Positions 5,477 through 36,702 of a stretch of DNA of 36,970 nucleotides are shown piece by piece; within the stretch, counting starts at the first letter, position 1, and each line of letters starts with the position of its first letter. The position numbers and the translations under genes were made by a program. The stretch is from Pirellulales bacterium. Lineage in GTDB: Bacteria > Planctomycetota > Planctomycetia > Pirellulales > JAICIG01. The notes beneath the pieces were generated by a model that saw only the letters and a list, made by a program, of their open reading frames with translations, was not told the origin of the DNA and did no database searches. The stretch spans positions 1 to 36,970 of the forward strand of contig DATLUO010000266.1 in assembly GCA_035533075.1 (NCBI GenBank), in the 5' to 3' direction.

Positions 5477-8400
5477 ATGCCGACCATCAGCCTCCCGCCC
5501 GACCTGCCCACTCAATACCATCACGCTGAGCCGCAACGGCGCTGGTATCCGTTTTGGGAAGAACGCGGATATTTTCATAGCGAGCCGGATGCCAGCCGCC
5601 AACCGTACTCGATCGTCATCCCGCCGCCCAACGTCACCGGGGCCTTGCACCTGGGCCACGCGCTGAACAATTCGCTCCAGGACATCCTGATTCGCTTCAA
5701 GCGGATGCAGGGCTACAACGTCCTGTGGATGCCGGGCACCGATCATGCCGGCATCGCCACGCAGGCCGTCGTCGAACGCCGTCTCTTGCAGGAAGAAAAG
5801 AAGAGCCGCCACGACCTGGGCCGCGAGAATCTGGTCGAGCGCATCTGGGAGTGGAAGAACGAATACGAGCAACGCATCCTCGGCCAGTTGAAACGGATGG
5901 GGTGCAGTTGCGATTGGCAACGCACGCGGTTCACGCTCGACCCGGTTTGTGCCCGTGCCGTCCGGCATACGTTCTTCAGCCTCTTCCAAGAAAAGCTGAT
6001 CTATCGCGGCAAGCGGCTGGTAAACTGGGACACCTTTCTGCAAACGGCCGTCAGCGACGACGAGGTCTACCACGAGCCGGTGGCCGGGCACTTCTGGCAT
6101 CTGAACTACGCGGTCATCGACCCGCTGCCGGGCGAGCCGAGGCACGTCACCATCGCCACCACACGGCCCGAAACGATGCTGGGCGACACGGCCGTGGCCG
6201 TCCATCCCGATCCGGCCGCCGCGCTCGACCGGGCCGAGGCCGAGCTGAAACGAAAACTCGCCGAAGCGGCTGACAAAGACCGCCCGGAGATCGAGCAACA
6301 ACTCACGGCGTTGACCGAGCGGCGGCAGACGCTGCTGCCCACGCTGATTCGCCTGCGCGACATGGCCCGTGCCGGCCGCAAACTGCGGCTGCCGCTCGTG
6401 GACCGCGAGATACCGCTGGTCGCCGATGAATGGGCCAGGCCCGAATTGGGCAGCGGCTGCGTCAAGATCACGCCGGCCCACGACCCGAACGACTACGACG
6501 TGGGCAAGCGTCAGAAGCTGCCCATGATCAACATTCTCAATCCCGAAGGCACGCTCAACGCCAACGCCGGACCGTACGAGGGCCTGACGATCGCCAAGGC
6601 CCGCGAGCGCGTCGTCGCCGATATGGAAAGTCAAGGTCTGCTGGTCGAGGTGGAAGACCGCGAGATCGACCTGGCCCATTCCGACCGCTCGAAGACAGCG
6701 ATCGAACCGTACCTGGCCGACCAGTGGTTCGTGAAGATGGAACAACTTGCGCAGTCGGCGATGGACGCGGTCACCGACGGCCGCGTCAAGATCGTACCCG
6801 CCCGATATGCGCAAGGTTATCTCGATTGGCTGGGCGAAAAGCGCGACTGGCCCGTCAGCCGGCAGCTTTGGTGGGGGCACCGCATTCCGGTTTGGTACGC
6901 GGCGACCGCCAGCGAGGCCGATCTGAAGAAGGCTTTCGCCGGACGGAGCGACGTGGTCTGGCAGCGAGACGAAGAGAGCGATCGTTGGCTGATCTGCGCG
7001 CAGGAAGAAGACCTGGCCGAAGACGCGGTGCCGGGGCACAGGCTGATCCGCGACGACGACGTGCTCGACACCTGGTTCAGCTCGGCGCTGTGGCCGCATT
7101 CGACGCTCGGTTGGCCCGACGAGACGCCGGAGTTGGCTTACTACTATCCCACCAGCACGCTGGTCACGAGTCGCGACATTATTACGCTGTGGGTCGCGCG
7201 GATGGTGCTCACCGGGCTGCATAACGTGGGCGACGTGCCGTTCCGCGAGGTGTTCATTCACCCGAAGATTCTGGACGGCTACGGCGAGACGATGTCGAAG
7301 TCGAAGGGGAACGGCGTCGACCCGATCGACGTGATGGACAAATTCGGCGCCGATGCCATGCGGTTCGCCCTGGCCTACCTGACGACCGAGACGCAAGACG
7401 TCCGCATGCCGGTGGAGTTCGAATGTCCGCACTGCGGCAAGCTGATCGAGCAGACCAAGAAGAACCGCGTTTTGCCGCGCGTCAAATGTTCGCACTGCGG
7501 CGGGGAGTTTTCGACGCAGTGGGCCACGAAGCCCGAAGATACGTCCTTGCCGCGCGGTCCGGTCGTGAGCGAGCGGTTCGAGTTGGCCCGCAACTTCTGC
7601 AACAAGCTCTGGAACGCCGCCCGCTTCACGCTGCTCAACCTCGAGGGTTACACGGCTGGCCCGGTTGACGACGCCGACCTGGCCGTCGAAGACCGCTGGT
7701 TGATGAGCCGGCTGGCGACGGTCACCCAGCTAGCGACTGAGGCACTGGAGAGTTATCGCTTTTCCGATGCGATGCGGGCGCTCTACGAATTCGCCTGGGA
7801 CGAGTTTTGCAGTTTTTACGTCGAGATGGTCAAGAACCGTCTGCAAGACGCGGGGCAGCGCGCGACTGCGCAGCGCGTGCTGGCTCACACGCTCGATGCG
7901 TTGGTGCGCTTGCTTCACCCGGCCATGCCGTTCGTGACCGAAGAGATTTGGCAACGGCTGGCGGTGGTCGCGTCCGCGCGGGGCCTCGATTCGCCGACTG
8001 AGGCGACGGAAAGCGTCATGGTCGCCGCATGGCCGCAAGCCGACCTGCGTCGTCGCGATGCGCAGATCGAGACCCGGTTTACGTACTTCCAGGAGGTCTT
8101 GCGCGGACTGCGCGAGATCCGCAGTCGGCAGAACATCGCCCCCAAGACGCCGGTCCGCTTTTCGGCGCGTTGCTCCTCTGAGACCGCGGAACTCCTCGAG
8201 CCGATGTCGCGGTACTTTGAATCGATGGCCGGCGCGCAGTCCGTCGCCTGGGGACCGGCCGCGTCACCGCCTGAAACGCACGCCCACGTCAGCCTGAAGG
8301 ATGTCGAGCTGTACGTCGATCTGGAAGGCTTGATCGACATCAAGGCAGAGATTGCCCGCTTGGAAAAGGAGCGCGACCGCATCAGCCAGGCGATCGCCAC

Positions 8401-13821: not shown

Positions 13822-13864
13822 GTAGGGTGGGCCGGCGCTCGCAAGCTCGCTGGTCCCACCCTAC
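13822..13864 (+). repeat. 43-bp dispersed repeat, full copy
   Basis: The copy has complete inverted ends, GTAGGGTGGG and CCCACCCTAC, around a core that is itself partly palindromic (GGCGCTCGCAAGCTCGC). It lies between the convergent PDZ and VWA genes. It is the best preserved copy here. Confidence 0.85.
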
Positions 13865-21590: not shown

Positions 21591-21595
21591 TCAAA

Positions 21596-21659
21596 GGGTT
21601 CAGGGTTCAGGGTTCAGGAATACTTGAATCAACGTTTGCCTGACGCCTGACGCCTGAAA
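21596..21659. repeat. Two heptamer arrays, TTCAGGG and GCCTGAC types
   Basis: GGGTTCA is repeated three times from 21596 and GCCTGAC type units three times from 21638. Both units are 7 bases long. With the 43-bp copy before them they fill the left part of the 385-base gap (21534-21918); the rest holds the promoter and leader of the next gene. Confidence 0.85.
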
Positions 21660-25557: not shown

Positions 25558-26745
25558 ATGGTACGCAGACGCGCTTTCACGCTCGTCGAGTTGCTGGTGG
25601 TGATCGCCATCATCGGCATTTTGATCGCACTGTTGTTGCCGGCCATTCAGGCGGCCCGCGAGGCGGCACGCCGCAGCCAGTGCAACAACAACCTGAAGCA
25701 GATCGCCTTGGCCGTGCAAAACTAAATCGACGTGAAAAGGGTCTTTCCGCCGCTCGCCGTGGGGACCAACAGCGGCGGTATCAACAACGGAAACCGTCTT
25801 GGTCCGCGCGTGATGCTGCTTCCCTACGTCGACCAACAGGCGCTCTGGGACGCGATCCGCGCCGGCGGGAACGGGCCGCAGCAGTCCGTTCCCGGACCCT
25901 GGCAAACCCCTCCGACGACCGCCATCAACTTTCCGCCGCAGGGGCCGAACGCCTGGACGAACACCTTTGTACCGTGGGTCACGACGATTCCAACCTATAT
26001 CTGTCCCTCGGAGGTCTACGACATGACGTCGAATTTCACCGACACCGCGCGGAGCAACTACGTGTTCTGCGTGGGCGACACCATGAGCGGCAACAATGCG
26101 AACACCGGGCCGTGCCTGTACGCGACGGGCGGGCAGTGTCGCGGCATCTTCTCCTATTTCAACAGCAAGACGTCGATCGCGGCCGTGCTGGACGGCACGA
26201 GTAACACCGCGATGGTCTCGGAGCACTGTTACACAACCCGCACCGTCGTCAAGGGCATGACCAGCAGGAGCGGTGAGTTCTGCGTCGTTCCCAACGTTCA
26301 GACGAATCCCGCGCTCTGCCTGGCCCAAGCGAGCGGATCGAACTTCACGACTTTAGCCGTTCTGACGTTTACGAATGCCGAGCCGTGGGGGGGCAACCGC
26401 TGGCCCGACGGATCGCCCCAGTACGCCGGATTCATGACCGTGCTGCCGCCGAATAGCCCCAACTGCGTCGGCGCCGATACGGACACCTGCGTCACCGGTC
26501 AAAGCATCCCGGTCCAGAACGGTGTGATCAGTACGACCACCGGCACCATCAGCACCGTCTCGAGCAACCATCCGGGCGGCGCCTTGGTGGCCATGGCCGA
26601 TGGTTCCGTTCGGTTTGTCAGCGAGGGGATCGATACGGGCAACCTGTCGTTCCCTGAGCCAATCACGGGCCCCAGCCCCTACGGCGTTTGGGGAGCGATG
26701 GGTTCCAAGGAGGGCAACGAGGGCGGAGCTCCCGCCGGACCATAA
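25558..26745 (+). pseudogene. DUF1559 pseudopilin-like gene interrupted by TAA
   Basis: The frame starts [15 protein letters not shown] with GAGGAG upstream. It runs without frameshift through to [10 protein letters not shown] and the C-terminal [20 protein letters not shown] and [16 protein letters not shown], but codon 56 is TAA (25723-25725). At that place the close paralogue at 27720 has TAC (Tyr, in [12 protein letters not shown]). A single base change therefore ends the gene after 55 residues. A restart at GTG 25732 has no ribosome binding site. Without the stop it would encode 395 residues. A sequencing error, a true nonsense mutation or a readthrough site are the options. Confidence 0.85.
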
Positions 26746-29171: not shown

Positions 29172-29207
29172 CTGAACCTGAACCCTGAACCCTGAACCCT
29201 GAACCCC
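29172..29207 (+). repeat. CCCTGAA heptamer array before the epimerase gene
   Basis: Four to five CCCTGAA units stand in a row and run up to the start codon at 29208. Opposite arrays lie after the gene (30111-30140). Confidence 0.85.
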
Positions 29208-30110
29208 ATGCGCGCCTTGGTAACCGGAGCGACCGGCTTCATCGGCAGACGACTGCTCGCACGGCTGGAACAGCCGGTAGTGCTTACGCGCTGGCCCGAC
29301 CGCTTCGACAAGCCGCGGCCGGAGATCGACGTCTATGGCTGGGAGCCGATGTCGGGCCCGCCGCCCGAAGCGGCCCTGCGGGGCGTCGACGTGGTTTTCC
29401 ATCTGGCCGGAGAGCCGGTGGCCGAAGGACGTTGGACCGCCCGAAAGAAAGCCCGCATTCGCGACAGCCGGCGCGTGGGCACGGCCAACCTGGTGAAAGG
29501 GCTGGCGGCCGCCGGCGAGCGGCCGCGCGTGCTGGTCTCGGCCTCGGCCGTCGGCTACTACGGCGATCGGGGAGACGAAATCCTCGACGAATCGTCGCCG
29601 CCGGGCGAGGATTTTCTGGCCGAGGTCTGCCGCCTGTGGGAGCTGGCGTCCGGCGAAGCCCGGCGCCTCGGCGTGCGCGTCGTCAACCCGCGCATCGGCA
29701 TCGTGTTGGGCCGCGAAGGCGGCGCACTGAAAAAAATGCTCCCGCCGTTCAAGCTGGGCCTCGGCGGCCGCCTGGCCGGCGGCCGGCAATGGATGCCCTG
29801 GATCCACGTCGACGATCTCGTGGGGCTGCTGTTGCACGCGGCCACCGCGGCCGATATCGACGGGCCGATGAACGCCGTCGCGCCCCACCCCGTGACCAAC
29901 CGCGAGTTCACCCAAACGCTGGCCGCCACGTTGCACCGCCCGGCGCTGTTTCCCGCGCCGGGCATCATGCTGAAGCTGGCCCTGGGCCAGTTCGCCGAAG
30001 TGCTCTTGGCCTCGCAGCGCGCCGTGCCGCAGGTCGCCTTGCGCACGGGCTACGAGTTCCGATTCGCCGATCTGGGCCCCGCGTTGGCGGAGATAGTGGG
30101 AGGCGGATGA
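29208..30110 (+). CDS. TIGR01777 family NAD(P)-dependent epimerase/dehydratase-like protein
   Basis: The 300-residue protein has the Rossmann start MRALVTGATGFIGRRLLARL (GATGFIG 7-13), the VFHLAGEPVAEGRWTARKKA segment typical of TIGR01777, and LVSASAVGYYGDRGDEILDE with the YYG in the catalytic region. Later segments are WELASGEARRLGVRVVNPRI, GGRQWMPWIHVDDLVGLLLH and the C-terminal substrate part with LASQRAVPQVALRTGYEFRF. Relatives include SulA-type cell-division-linked proteins, but the substrate is unknown. The ATG is directly behind a CCCTGAA array, so no normal ribosome binding site exists. A TTCAGGG array begins directly after the stop codon. Confidence 0.93.
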   Translation: MRALVTGATGFIGRRLLARLEQPVVLTRWPDRFDKPRPEIDVYGWEPMSGPPPEAALRGVDVVFHLAGEPVAEGRWTARKKARIRDSRRVGTANLVKGLAAAGERPRVLVSASAVGYYGDRGDEILDESSPPGEDFLAEVCRLWELASGEARRLGVRVVNPRIGIVLGREGGALKKMLPPFKLGLGGRLAGGRQWMPWIHVDDLVGLLLHAATAADIDGPMNAVAPHPVTNREFTQTLAATLHRPALFPAPGIMLKLALGQFAEVLLASQRAVPQVALRTGYEFRFADLGPALAEIVGGG

Positions 30111-30277
30111 GGGTTCAGGGTTCAGGGTTCAGGGTTCAGGAAAGGTGGCAGTCGGTTCGCAGGCGAACTCCGCTTGCGCGTCGCTGAACCCCGAACCCCG
30201 AAGCCTTCGTGTGCTGGATTTTGTAGGCGAAGTCCGCTTGCGCGTCGCTGAACCCTGAACCCTGAACCCTGAACCCT
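30111..30277. repeat. Opposed heptamer arrays between convergent genes
   Basis: TTCAGGG is repeated four times at 30111-30140, and CCCTGAA four times at 30248-30277, so the ends are complementary. Between them is a direct repeat: 30161-30190 and 30225-30254 share GGCGAAxTCCGCTTGCGCG and the following bases. The structure could act as a two-way terminator between the epimerase and secretin genes. Confidence 0.85.
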
Positions 30278-35012: not shown

Positions 35013-36140
35013 ATGAAGACCCATCGGTCGAGCGGCCCGGCGCGCCGCGCTTTTACGTTGGTCGAATTATTGGTGGTGATCGCCATCATCGGCATCTTGA
35101 TCGCCTTGTTGCTGCCCGCCGTGCAGGCGGCCCGCGAAGCGGCCCGGCGGTCGCAGTGCAACAACAACATCAAGCAGTTGGGGCTGGCCACGATCCTCTA
35201 CCACGATACGTGGCGCAAGTTTACTTATGGACGGGGCGGATGGAACGAAGACAACCGTTGCGGCGATTTTAGCGGCTTTCTCACGCTGTTGCCCTATGCC
35301 GAGCAAGCGCCGATTTGGCAGTTCATCGACGGCGAAAACAACAATCCCGCAAGCGGATCGGTTTATCCCTGGGGTCCCGCCACCAACGTGCCGTGGCACA
35401 CGCTGCTCACCACGCAACTCAGCGTAATGATTTGTCCGTCGAGCCCCTATCCCGTGAACACGAATTACGCGGGCATGGGCCAGCGCAGCTATCACTTCAA
35501 TGCGGGTACGAGCATCAACAACTACACCGCTGAGACGAACGGCATCTATAGCCACTGGATGGCCTCCACCAAAAAACCCTGCACCGGCAGCAACCAGCAA
35601 AAGGCGATTCGCAACATTCTCGACGGCACCAGCAACACCGCCAACATCAGCGAAAAAGCGCTCACCACGGCAAGGCGCAACGGCGTAACGCCGCCGCCGT
35701 CGACGACCATCATGGGCCAGGGCGTCCAAGGACATACCCCAGCCGTCTTGATCCCGAACCCGACGATCTGCCTGGCTACGGCCCAAAACCGGAACTACGT
35801 GGCCGGCCAAATCGTTAACATCAGCAATTACCAGAACGGCGACCAGTGGATGATGGGCCATCCGTACTGGACCTTGTTCACAACGATACTGCCGCCCAAT
35901 AGTCCCACGTGCTACGGCACGACCGGCCTCAATCCCAGCAATGCCAACGGAATCTTTCCGCCCACAAGCTGGCATCCCGGCGGCGTGCTGGTGGGCATGG
36001 CCGACGGCAGCGTGCGTTTCGTCACGGAAGGCATCGATTGCGGCAATTATGGCATGCCGCCCGCCTTGAACTACGGTGTCTGGGGCGCCATGGGGACGGT
36101 TGCCGGTGGCGAGGCCTATGGCCTGGGAGGCACCCCCTAG
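35013..36140 (+). CDS. DUF1559 pseudopilin-like protein, copy 5
   Basis: The 375-residue protein starts [20 protein letters not shown] with an Ala/Phe cleavage site. It has [60 protein letters not shown] and the C-terminal [20 protein letters not shown] and [17 protein letters not shown]. It is the most diverged of the five copies. GGAG lies about 13 bases upstream. It is divergent from the secretin gene and followed by a lipoprotein gene, again a DUF1559/lipoprotein pair. Confidence 0.93.
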   Translation: MKTHRSSGPARRAFTLVELLVVIAIIGILIALLLPAVQAAREAARRSQCNNNIKQLGLATILYHDTWRKFTYGRGGWNEDNRCGDFSGFLTLLPYAEQAPIWQFIDGENNNPASGSVYPWGPATNVPWHTLLTTQLSVMICPSSPYPVNTNYAGMGQRSYHFNAGTSINNYTAETNGIYSHWMASTKKPCTGSNQQKAIRNILDGTSNTANISEKALTTARRNGVTPPPSTTIMGQGVQGHTPAVLIPNPTICLATAQNRNYVAGQIVNISNYQNGDQWMMGHPYWTLFTTILPPNSPTCYGTTGLNPSNANGIFPPTSWHPGGVLVGMADGSVRFVTEGIDCGNYGMPPALNYGVWGAMGTVAGGEAYGLGGTP

Positions 36141-36192
36141 TCCTTCTCAGTCGTACCTTGAGCGAGGGCACTTTTTCGAGCACTCCTCTATC

Positions 36193-36702
36193 GTGAGATC
36201 CTTCGTGTTTTTTCCTTGTGCGTTCGCGACTTCGTTCAGGGTGGGCCGGCGCTCGCAAGCTCGCTGGTCCCACCCTACCGGCAGGTTTTGTTTGTTCTCG
36301 CTGGCGGCGGTGCTGGCGGTTGGTTGTTCAAAAAGCGACCGTGACACGGGCACCGTACCGGTTTCGGGCAAGGTAACCCACGGCGGGCAGCCGCTGGCCG
36401 GCGCCGTTGTCACGTTCGTCAGCGACGCCGGCCTGACGCCTGGCGCGGGAATGTCGGACGCCGACGGCGGCTACAGCCTGAGAGTGAAGCCGGGCAGCTA
36501 TACGGCCACTGTTTCGAAATTGACCGGCTCCGGCGACACCAAAACAGTGAGCATGGAAGACGCGATGGCCAACGCGGACAAGCCGCGCGAGGGACCAAAA
36601 GAAACGCTGCCGTCGAAATATCAAAGTCCCGTCGAATCGCCCTTGAAGTTCGAGGTCAAGCCCAGCGGCAGCAACACGTTCGATCTCAGCCTGAGCGACT
36701 GA
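36193..36702 (+). CDS. Carboxypeptidase-regulatory-like lipoprotein with a repeat in its signal region
   Basis: The protein ends with the usual carboxypeptidase-regulatory-like domain (VSGKVTHGGQPLAGAVVTFV, DADGGYSLRVKPGSYTATVS) and SLSD. A hydrophobic segment (FCLFSLAAVLAVGCSKS) marks a lipoprotein signal. Directly before it, bases 36240-36278 are a 43-bp dispersed repeat, translated as GRRSQARWSHPTG. I chose the GTG at 36193 (MRSFVFFPCAFATSF) as the likely original start; GTG 36241 inside the repeat would give a fully normal lipoprotein signal peptide with a basic n-region, and is just as possible. The gene follows DUF1559 copy 5 and resembles the other lipoproteins of this region. Confidence 0.7.
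   Translation: MRSFVFFPCAFATSFRVGRRSQARWSHPTGRFCLFSLAAVLAVGCSKSDRDTGTVPVSGKVTHGGQPLAGAVVTFVSDAGLTPGAGMSDADGGYSLRVKPGSYTATVSKLTGSGDTKTVSMEDAMANADKPREGPKETLPSKYQSPVESPLKFEVKPSGSNTFDLSLSD
36240..36278 (+). repeat. 43-bp dispersed repeat inside a coding region
   Basis: The copy has GGTGGGCCGGCGCTCGCAAG and CTCGCTGGTCCCACCCTACC. It lies in frame in the lipoprotein gene without stop codons, unlike other copies that are intergenic. Confidence 0.85.

Follow-up and report, generated by a model that had tools for sequence, protein, structure and literature searches.

The window, which is the whole stretch of 36,970 nucleotides analysed here, comes from a Pirellulales bacterium (contig DATLUO010000266.1). 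Near its right-hand end, a gene for a pseudopilin-like protein and a gene for a lipoprotein follow one another on the forward strand, with a palindromic repeat (REP) between them. The features are:

35013-36140, + strand: DUF1559 (SBP_bac_10) pseudopilin-like gene (PF07596, E=1e-44)
36222-36239, + strand: degenerate REPIN spacer of 18 nt
36240-36278, + strand: REP of 39 bp, a perfect consensus copy of the GTAG type
36280-36702, + strand: lipoprotein gene downstream of the REP, with a CarboxypepD_reg-like domain (PF13620, E=8.2e-9)

The signal-peptide core of the lipoprotein is GRFCLFSLAAVLAVG, with both a hydrophobic core and the lipobox LAVGC present (LFSLAAVLAVGC). The cysteine codon lies at 36325-36327 and the stop at 36700-36702. 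No stop or frameshift is found through 36702, the protein has the full length of its family, and the coding score over codons 36331-36699 is normal (0.229, with 0.217 for the DUF1559 gene). The gene therefore looks intact, and gene death is not indicated.

The DUF1559 gene is the probable operon partner of the lipoprotein gene. The nearest relatives to turn up are two paralogous genes in the same genome (G000:C254), in the same order and with 50% identity for the lipoprotein and 52% for DUF1559; there the ATG of the lipoprotein gene overlaps the stop of the DUF1559 gene, with no REP in between. A search of this genome and 56 relatives gave, beyond G000 itself, only distant lipoprotein homologues (the best with E 2.8e-16 and 43% identity). 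None of these 57 genomes yielded an ortholog that lacks the REP (an empty site), and a scan of further genome contigs with the lipoprotein as query found no relative. The window also holds another DUF1559 gene copy (25559-25725), whose reading frame is cut short by an in-frame stop after about 55 codons, with the family homology going on downstream.

The first-pass annotation described the repeat as dispersed, and this is borne out. Its 35-bp core has 711 matches at no more than 3 mismatches in the 8.54-Mb genome (G000, 296 contigs), divided 358/353 between the strands, while a reversed-pattern control has 0. The window itself contains five further full copies (at 13826, 20134, 20242, 21555 and 29105), and its positions 1-26 are a truncated copy. 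The GTAG tag is at one end of the palindrome, the reverse strand of the REP starting GTAGGGTGGG. On its own the REP is predicted to fold into a hairpin of -22.8 kcal/mol (z -3.5).

The repeat is present at 36240-36278 as annotated, but the element stretches further left than had been supposed, to 36222. The additional 18 nt resemble the REPIN spacer, whose consensus is GTnAnCGACGTCGnTnAC: they score 6.1 bits against a spacer matrix, a value equalled or exceeded by 48 of 39,964 background 18-mers, and rank 7th among 104 solo REPs. Spacer and REP together make a 57-nt half-REPIN (19 codons). There is no left-hand REP at 36183-36221, and by its sequence the window copy is one half of a REPIN, lacking the left REP.

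The habits of the family were surveyed in a 2.07-Mb sample, a quarter of the genome, which contains 172 REPs. Inverted -/+ pairs (REPINs), with a spacer around GCGACGTCG, account for 66 of these, and the spacing was 16-19 nt in all 15 inverted pairs of the first 0.97 Mb. Only 31 of the 172 overlap called genes, making the family mainly extragenic. At the same mismatch threshold it is absent from all 56 other genomes, including one of the same taxonomic family, and is therefore probably recent. The likely mobiliser is a RAYT gene (L200:7099-7659, in G000:C135; NF047646, E=2.4e-50) that is itself flanked by REPs at 7031, 7685 and 7792, forming a REP-RAYT-REP unit at L200:7031-7826. Period-7 repeats (ATCCAAA, CCCTGAA and, elsewhere, CAAATTG) are also dispersed in the genome, often beside REPs and at times within protein-coding sequence, in frame; ATCCAAA has 405 overlapping matches, and sites include L093:2989-3062 and window positions 21595-21620, 29177-29207 and 30103-30142.

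Some REPs or REPINs lie in frame deep inside genes:

L208:11968-12055: Lhr-type helicase, between domains
L180:802-889: P-type ATPase, within the hydrolase domain
L107:2645-2679: molybdopterin oxidoreductase
L157:17027-17061: TPR/glycosyltransferase
L209:11545-11579: sarcosine oxidase alpha-like

These elements encode peptides of the GWDQRACERRPT...GGPALASSLVPPY type, and their position makes translation through REP elements plausible in this genome. In addition, a phage-capsid/prohead-protease-like open reading frame with two in-frame REPs was seen among apparent prophage genes (L159, G000:C67, 7118-10075).

The frame of the lipoprotein is open from 36076 on, and the REP translates in it to VGRRSQARWSHPT. 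The first-pass annotation was thus right that the repeat is in frame and open, but this is weak evidence of translation, because the REP is free of stops in five of its six frames (all three on this strand and two of three on the other). In 72 REP/gene rows of the 2.07-Mb sample, the frame stays open from the REP on into the gene that follows. The called start comes after the REP in 68 of the 72, a count that is partly built in, since a called start is a start codon by definition. In most of these rows the open stretch is probably leader that is not translated, and a frame that stays open through a REP of this sort should not be annotated as translated on that ground.

The in-frame candidates for the start of the lipoprotein gene are GTG 36193, GTG 36205, GTG 36241 and TTG 36292, together with earlier codons that overlap the DUF1559 gene. 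For each, the predicted cost of opening the initiation region was compared with that of 300 sampled ATG starts of the same genome; the percentage given is that of ATG starts which are as costly or more so:

GTG 36193, + strand: upstream of the element; 8.1 kcal/mol, 77%
GTG 36205, + strand: upstream of the element; 5.5 kcal/mol, 92%
GTG 36241-36243, + strand: in the stem of the REP hairpin; 21.2 kcal/mol, 3.3%
TTG 36292-36294, + strand: downstream of the REP; 16.7 kcal/mol, 14%
ATG 36118, + strand: inside the DUF1559 gene; 19.4 kcal/mol, 6.3%

On the basis of these folding predictions, the GTG in the REP would be the least likely start, and the two upstream GTGs would be cheap to open. The predicted start is more likely to lie upstream of the REP than in it.

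Two other measures were rejected as means of deciding on the start. A Shine-Dalgarno-like motif (GGAG, GAGG or AGGA) precedes 225 of 751 called ATG starts, compared with 68 of 751 in a control interval, but it is absent upstream of all five candidates tested. The codons that follow GTG 36193 and GTG 36205 score -0.39 and -0.32, at about the 1st and 3rd percentiles of 756 called ATG genes, but codon composition carries little weight here, as low scores are also found at accepted lipoprotein starts in the window (-0.12, -0.34 and -0.11; a start on another contig, L093, discussed below, scores -0.20).

We consider that the best explanation, to which we give a probability of roughly 45%, is an in-frame REP insertion that is translated from an upstream start and lengthens the n-region of the signal peptide neutrally. 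A REPIN, mobilised by the RAYT, would have inserted in frame into the n-region stretch of the CarboxypepD_reg lipoprotein gene in the DUF1559-lipoprotein operon, and of this REPIN the spacer and the right-hand REP would remain. Translation would begin at GTG 36193 or GTG 36205 and run through the REP, adding a basic stretch of about 13 residues from the REP, or 19 with the spacer, and leaving the hydrophobic core and lipobox unchanged. Both the read-through and the basic character would follow from the element itself, which in this orientation has no stop and is rich in arginine. Signal peptidase II cleaves off the region before the cysteine of lipoproteins; the whole added stretch would be removed with it, and the mature protein would be unaltered and presumably still exported. 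The GRF directly after the REP fits the border between n-region and core.

The suggestion in the first-pass annotation that the repeat supplies a basic n-region holds in this conditional form: if translated, the arginine-rich REP does supply one, and two other genes described below show the same placement. Against an upstream start stand the low codon scores, the lack of a Shine-Dalgarno-like motif, the lack of an empty-site ortholog and the hydrophobic nature of the segment SFVFFPCAFATSF that precedes the REP. Since this segment is itself hydrophobic, a protein begun upstream would have two hydrophobic stretches around the basic one.

The two cleaner cases come from the same 72 REP/gene rows, which were inspected by eye for cases where a signal-peptide core follows the REP immediately, without an intervening ATG. 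In each, the core is separated from an upstream ATG by a REP or REPIN that keeps the frame. The first, on L162, is a PPC-domain protein in which the ATG is followed by 34 nt, a REPIN of exactly 96 nt (GTAG to CTAC), and then the core. Removal of the REPIN in silico gives MSKGIGGYASAFLLLFVSLVPSRAVAQTSYP (also given as MSKGIGGYASAFLLLFVSLVPSRAVAQTSYPMLM), and the signal peptides of relatives are ordinary ones that share this pattern, for example MSRASLLFVFLVLPATSARAQSSYP on L216, and also MSRASLLFVFLVLPATSARAQSSYPMLM. The ATG would cost 6.6 kcal/mol to open, compared with 12.8 kcal/mol for the REP GTG. An ortholog of this gene in another genome (L215, G049, about 1380-1490) has a different repeat, of the AATTGCAAATTG type with 7 matches in that genome, directly before its core; its nearby starts are TTG only.

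The second case, on L093, has an ATG that overlaps the stop of the preceding gene; 32 nt further on comes a 114-nt insert of ATCC repeat and REP, and then AIVFTFLLGLCGVPAACAEP. Without the insert the sequence reads MSWHFLREATRAIVFTFLLGLCGVPAACAEP, and a relative in genome G001 has MLRVLLGLSFVSLLSAAVHAAEP. Opening would cost 14.9 kcal/mol at the ATG (22% of ATG starts as costly or more) versus 22.7 kcal/mol at the REP GTG (1.7%).

Counting the window gene, the n-region cases come to three genes in the quarter of the genome that was sampled. The 16 deep intragenic loci, at least two of which (L139 and window 19926) probably reflect misplaced starts, lead to an expectation of 0.08 n-region insertions, and 2-3 were seen; the comparison is post hoc and rests on rough gene calls, and it was set aside as proof of enrichment.

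The alternative that survives best, although we find it doubtful, is that the REP is untranslated leader, that the gene starts at TTG 36292 with a very short signal peptide, and that the openness upstream is coincidental. This TTG is the start picked by a composition-based gene caller, the composition upstream of it resembles non-coding sequence, and TTG starts do occur (93 of 1,047 called genes). Called starts after the REP predominate among the 72 rows, with the built-in bias noted above, and PMC3733652 warns that REPs placed at N-termini may for the most part be extragenic. However, the resulting peptide, LFSLAAVLAVG-C, has 11 residues before the cysteine and no K/R. Among the 34 lipoprotein-like genes found, the nine that offer just one candidate start have 12-21 residues there, and K/R in 8 of the 9. 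Because GRF fits the border of n-region and core, a start at the TTG would remove the only basic residue, and the TTG is among the costlier sites to open.

We regard it as unlikely that translation begins at the GTG in the REP, a mobile repeat having been turned into start site and n-region, as the first-pass annotation proposed. Judged by charge pattern, GTG 36241 gives the best signal peptide, VGRRSQARWSHPTGRFCLFSLAAVLAVGC, with basic n-region, core and lipobox, and the gene caller chose the same REP GTG ahead of the L093 signal peptide. Set against this, the codon is buried in the stem of the hairpin and leaves 28 residues before the cysteine, beyond the 12-21 of the comparison genes. Like the other candidates it has no GGAG, GAGG or AGGA upstream. 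L093 is better explained by its upstream ATG, which can serve as start, so that the REP GTG is not needed there, and both cleaner cases have an ATG upstream of the repeat. Recruitment of the repeat as a start site is accordingly unsupported. Least probable of all is that the insertion severed the gene from its start, with expression lost or nearly so and decay not yet visible, for which speak the weak start candidates (only GTG or TTG, with no Shine-Dalgarno-like motif) and the lack in the window of an ATG overlapping the DUF1559 stop as in the C254 sister, but against which stand the undamaged frame, full family length and normal coding score.

The translated, lengthened n-region remains our preferred reading, with the window case alone being a weaker example than L162 and L093. 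REPs are usually treated as extragenic, and an exact in-frame REPIN in a signal peptide, with uninterrupted relatives, is well suited to a clean study of the way REPINs insert, of the tolerance of coding sequence for them, and of the question whether REPs ever supply start codons. A wider idea, decidedly unlikely at present, is that stop-free, arginine-rich REPIN frames favour n-regions as safe landing sites, with REPINs repeatedly rewriting exported N-termini and a REP GTG sometimes serving as the start.

Like the GTAG-type REP families and REP dimers described in PMC3733652 (BMC Genomics 2013), the element is a palindrome of 20-40 bp with GTAG at one end, occurs in high copy number, mostly between genes, and forms inverted pairs in a genome with a RAYT. 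That paper treats 24 REP families, and the likeness to them drawn here is one of features. It describes GTAG repeats in Planctomycetes, in-frame intragenic REPs in Opitutus and Rickettsia, and REPs at the N-termini of open reading frames, with the warning that many of the latter are annotation errors; the words 'signal peptide' are absent from its main text. REPINs, as described by Bertels and Rainey (2011, PMC3116915), are units of two inverted REPs and a short spacer, and the inverted pairs here, with their 16-19 nt spacers, agree with this; the window copy differs in keeping one REP and the spacer only. Among the open-licence papers searched, none was found whose title or opening of the abstract deals with signal peptides that contain REPs or REPINs. 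Rickettsia palindromic elements (RPE), cited in PMC3733652, are palindromic repeats tolerated in frame inside proteins. By this description the window element would work similarly, in a different phylum. It is best seen as a tidy example of insertion by a REP/REPIN of an already known type, and not as a new device for starting translation.
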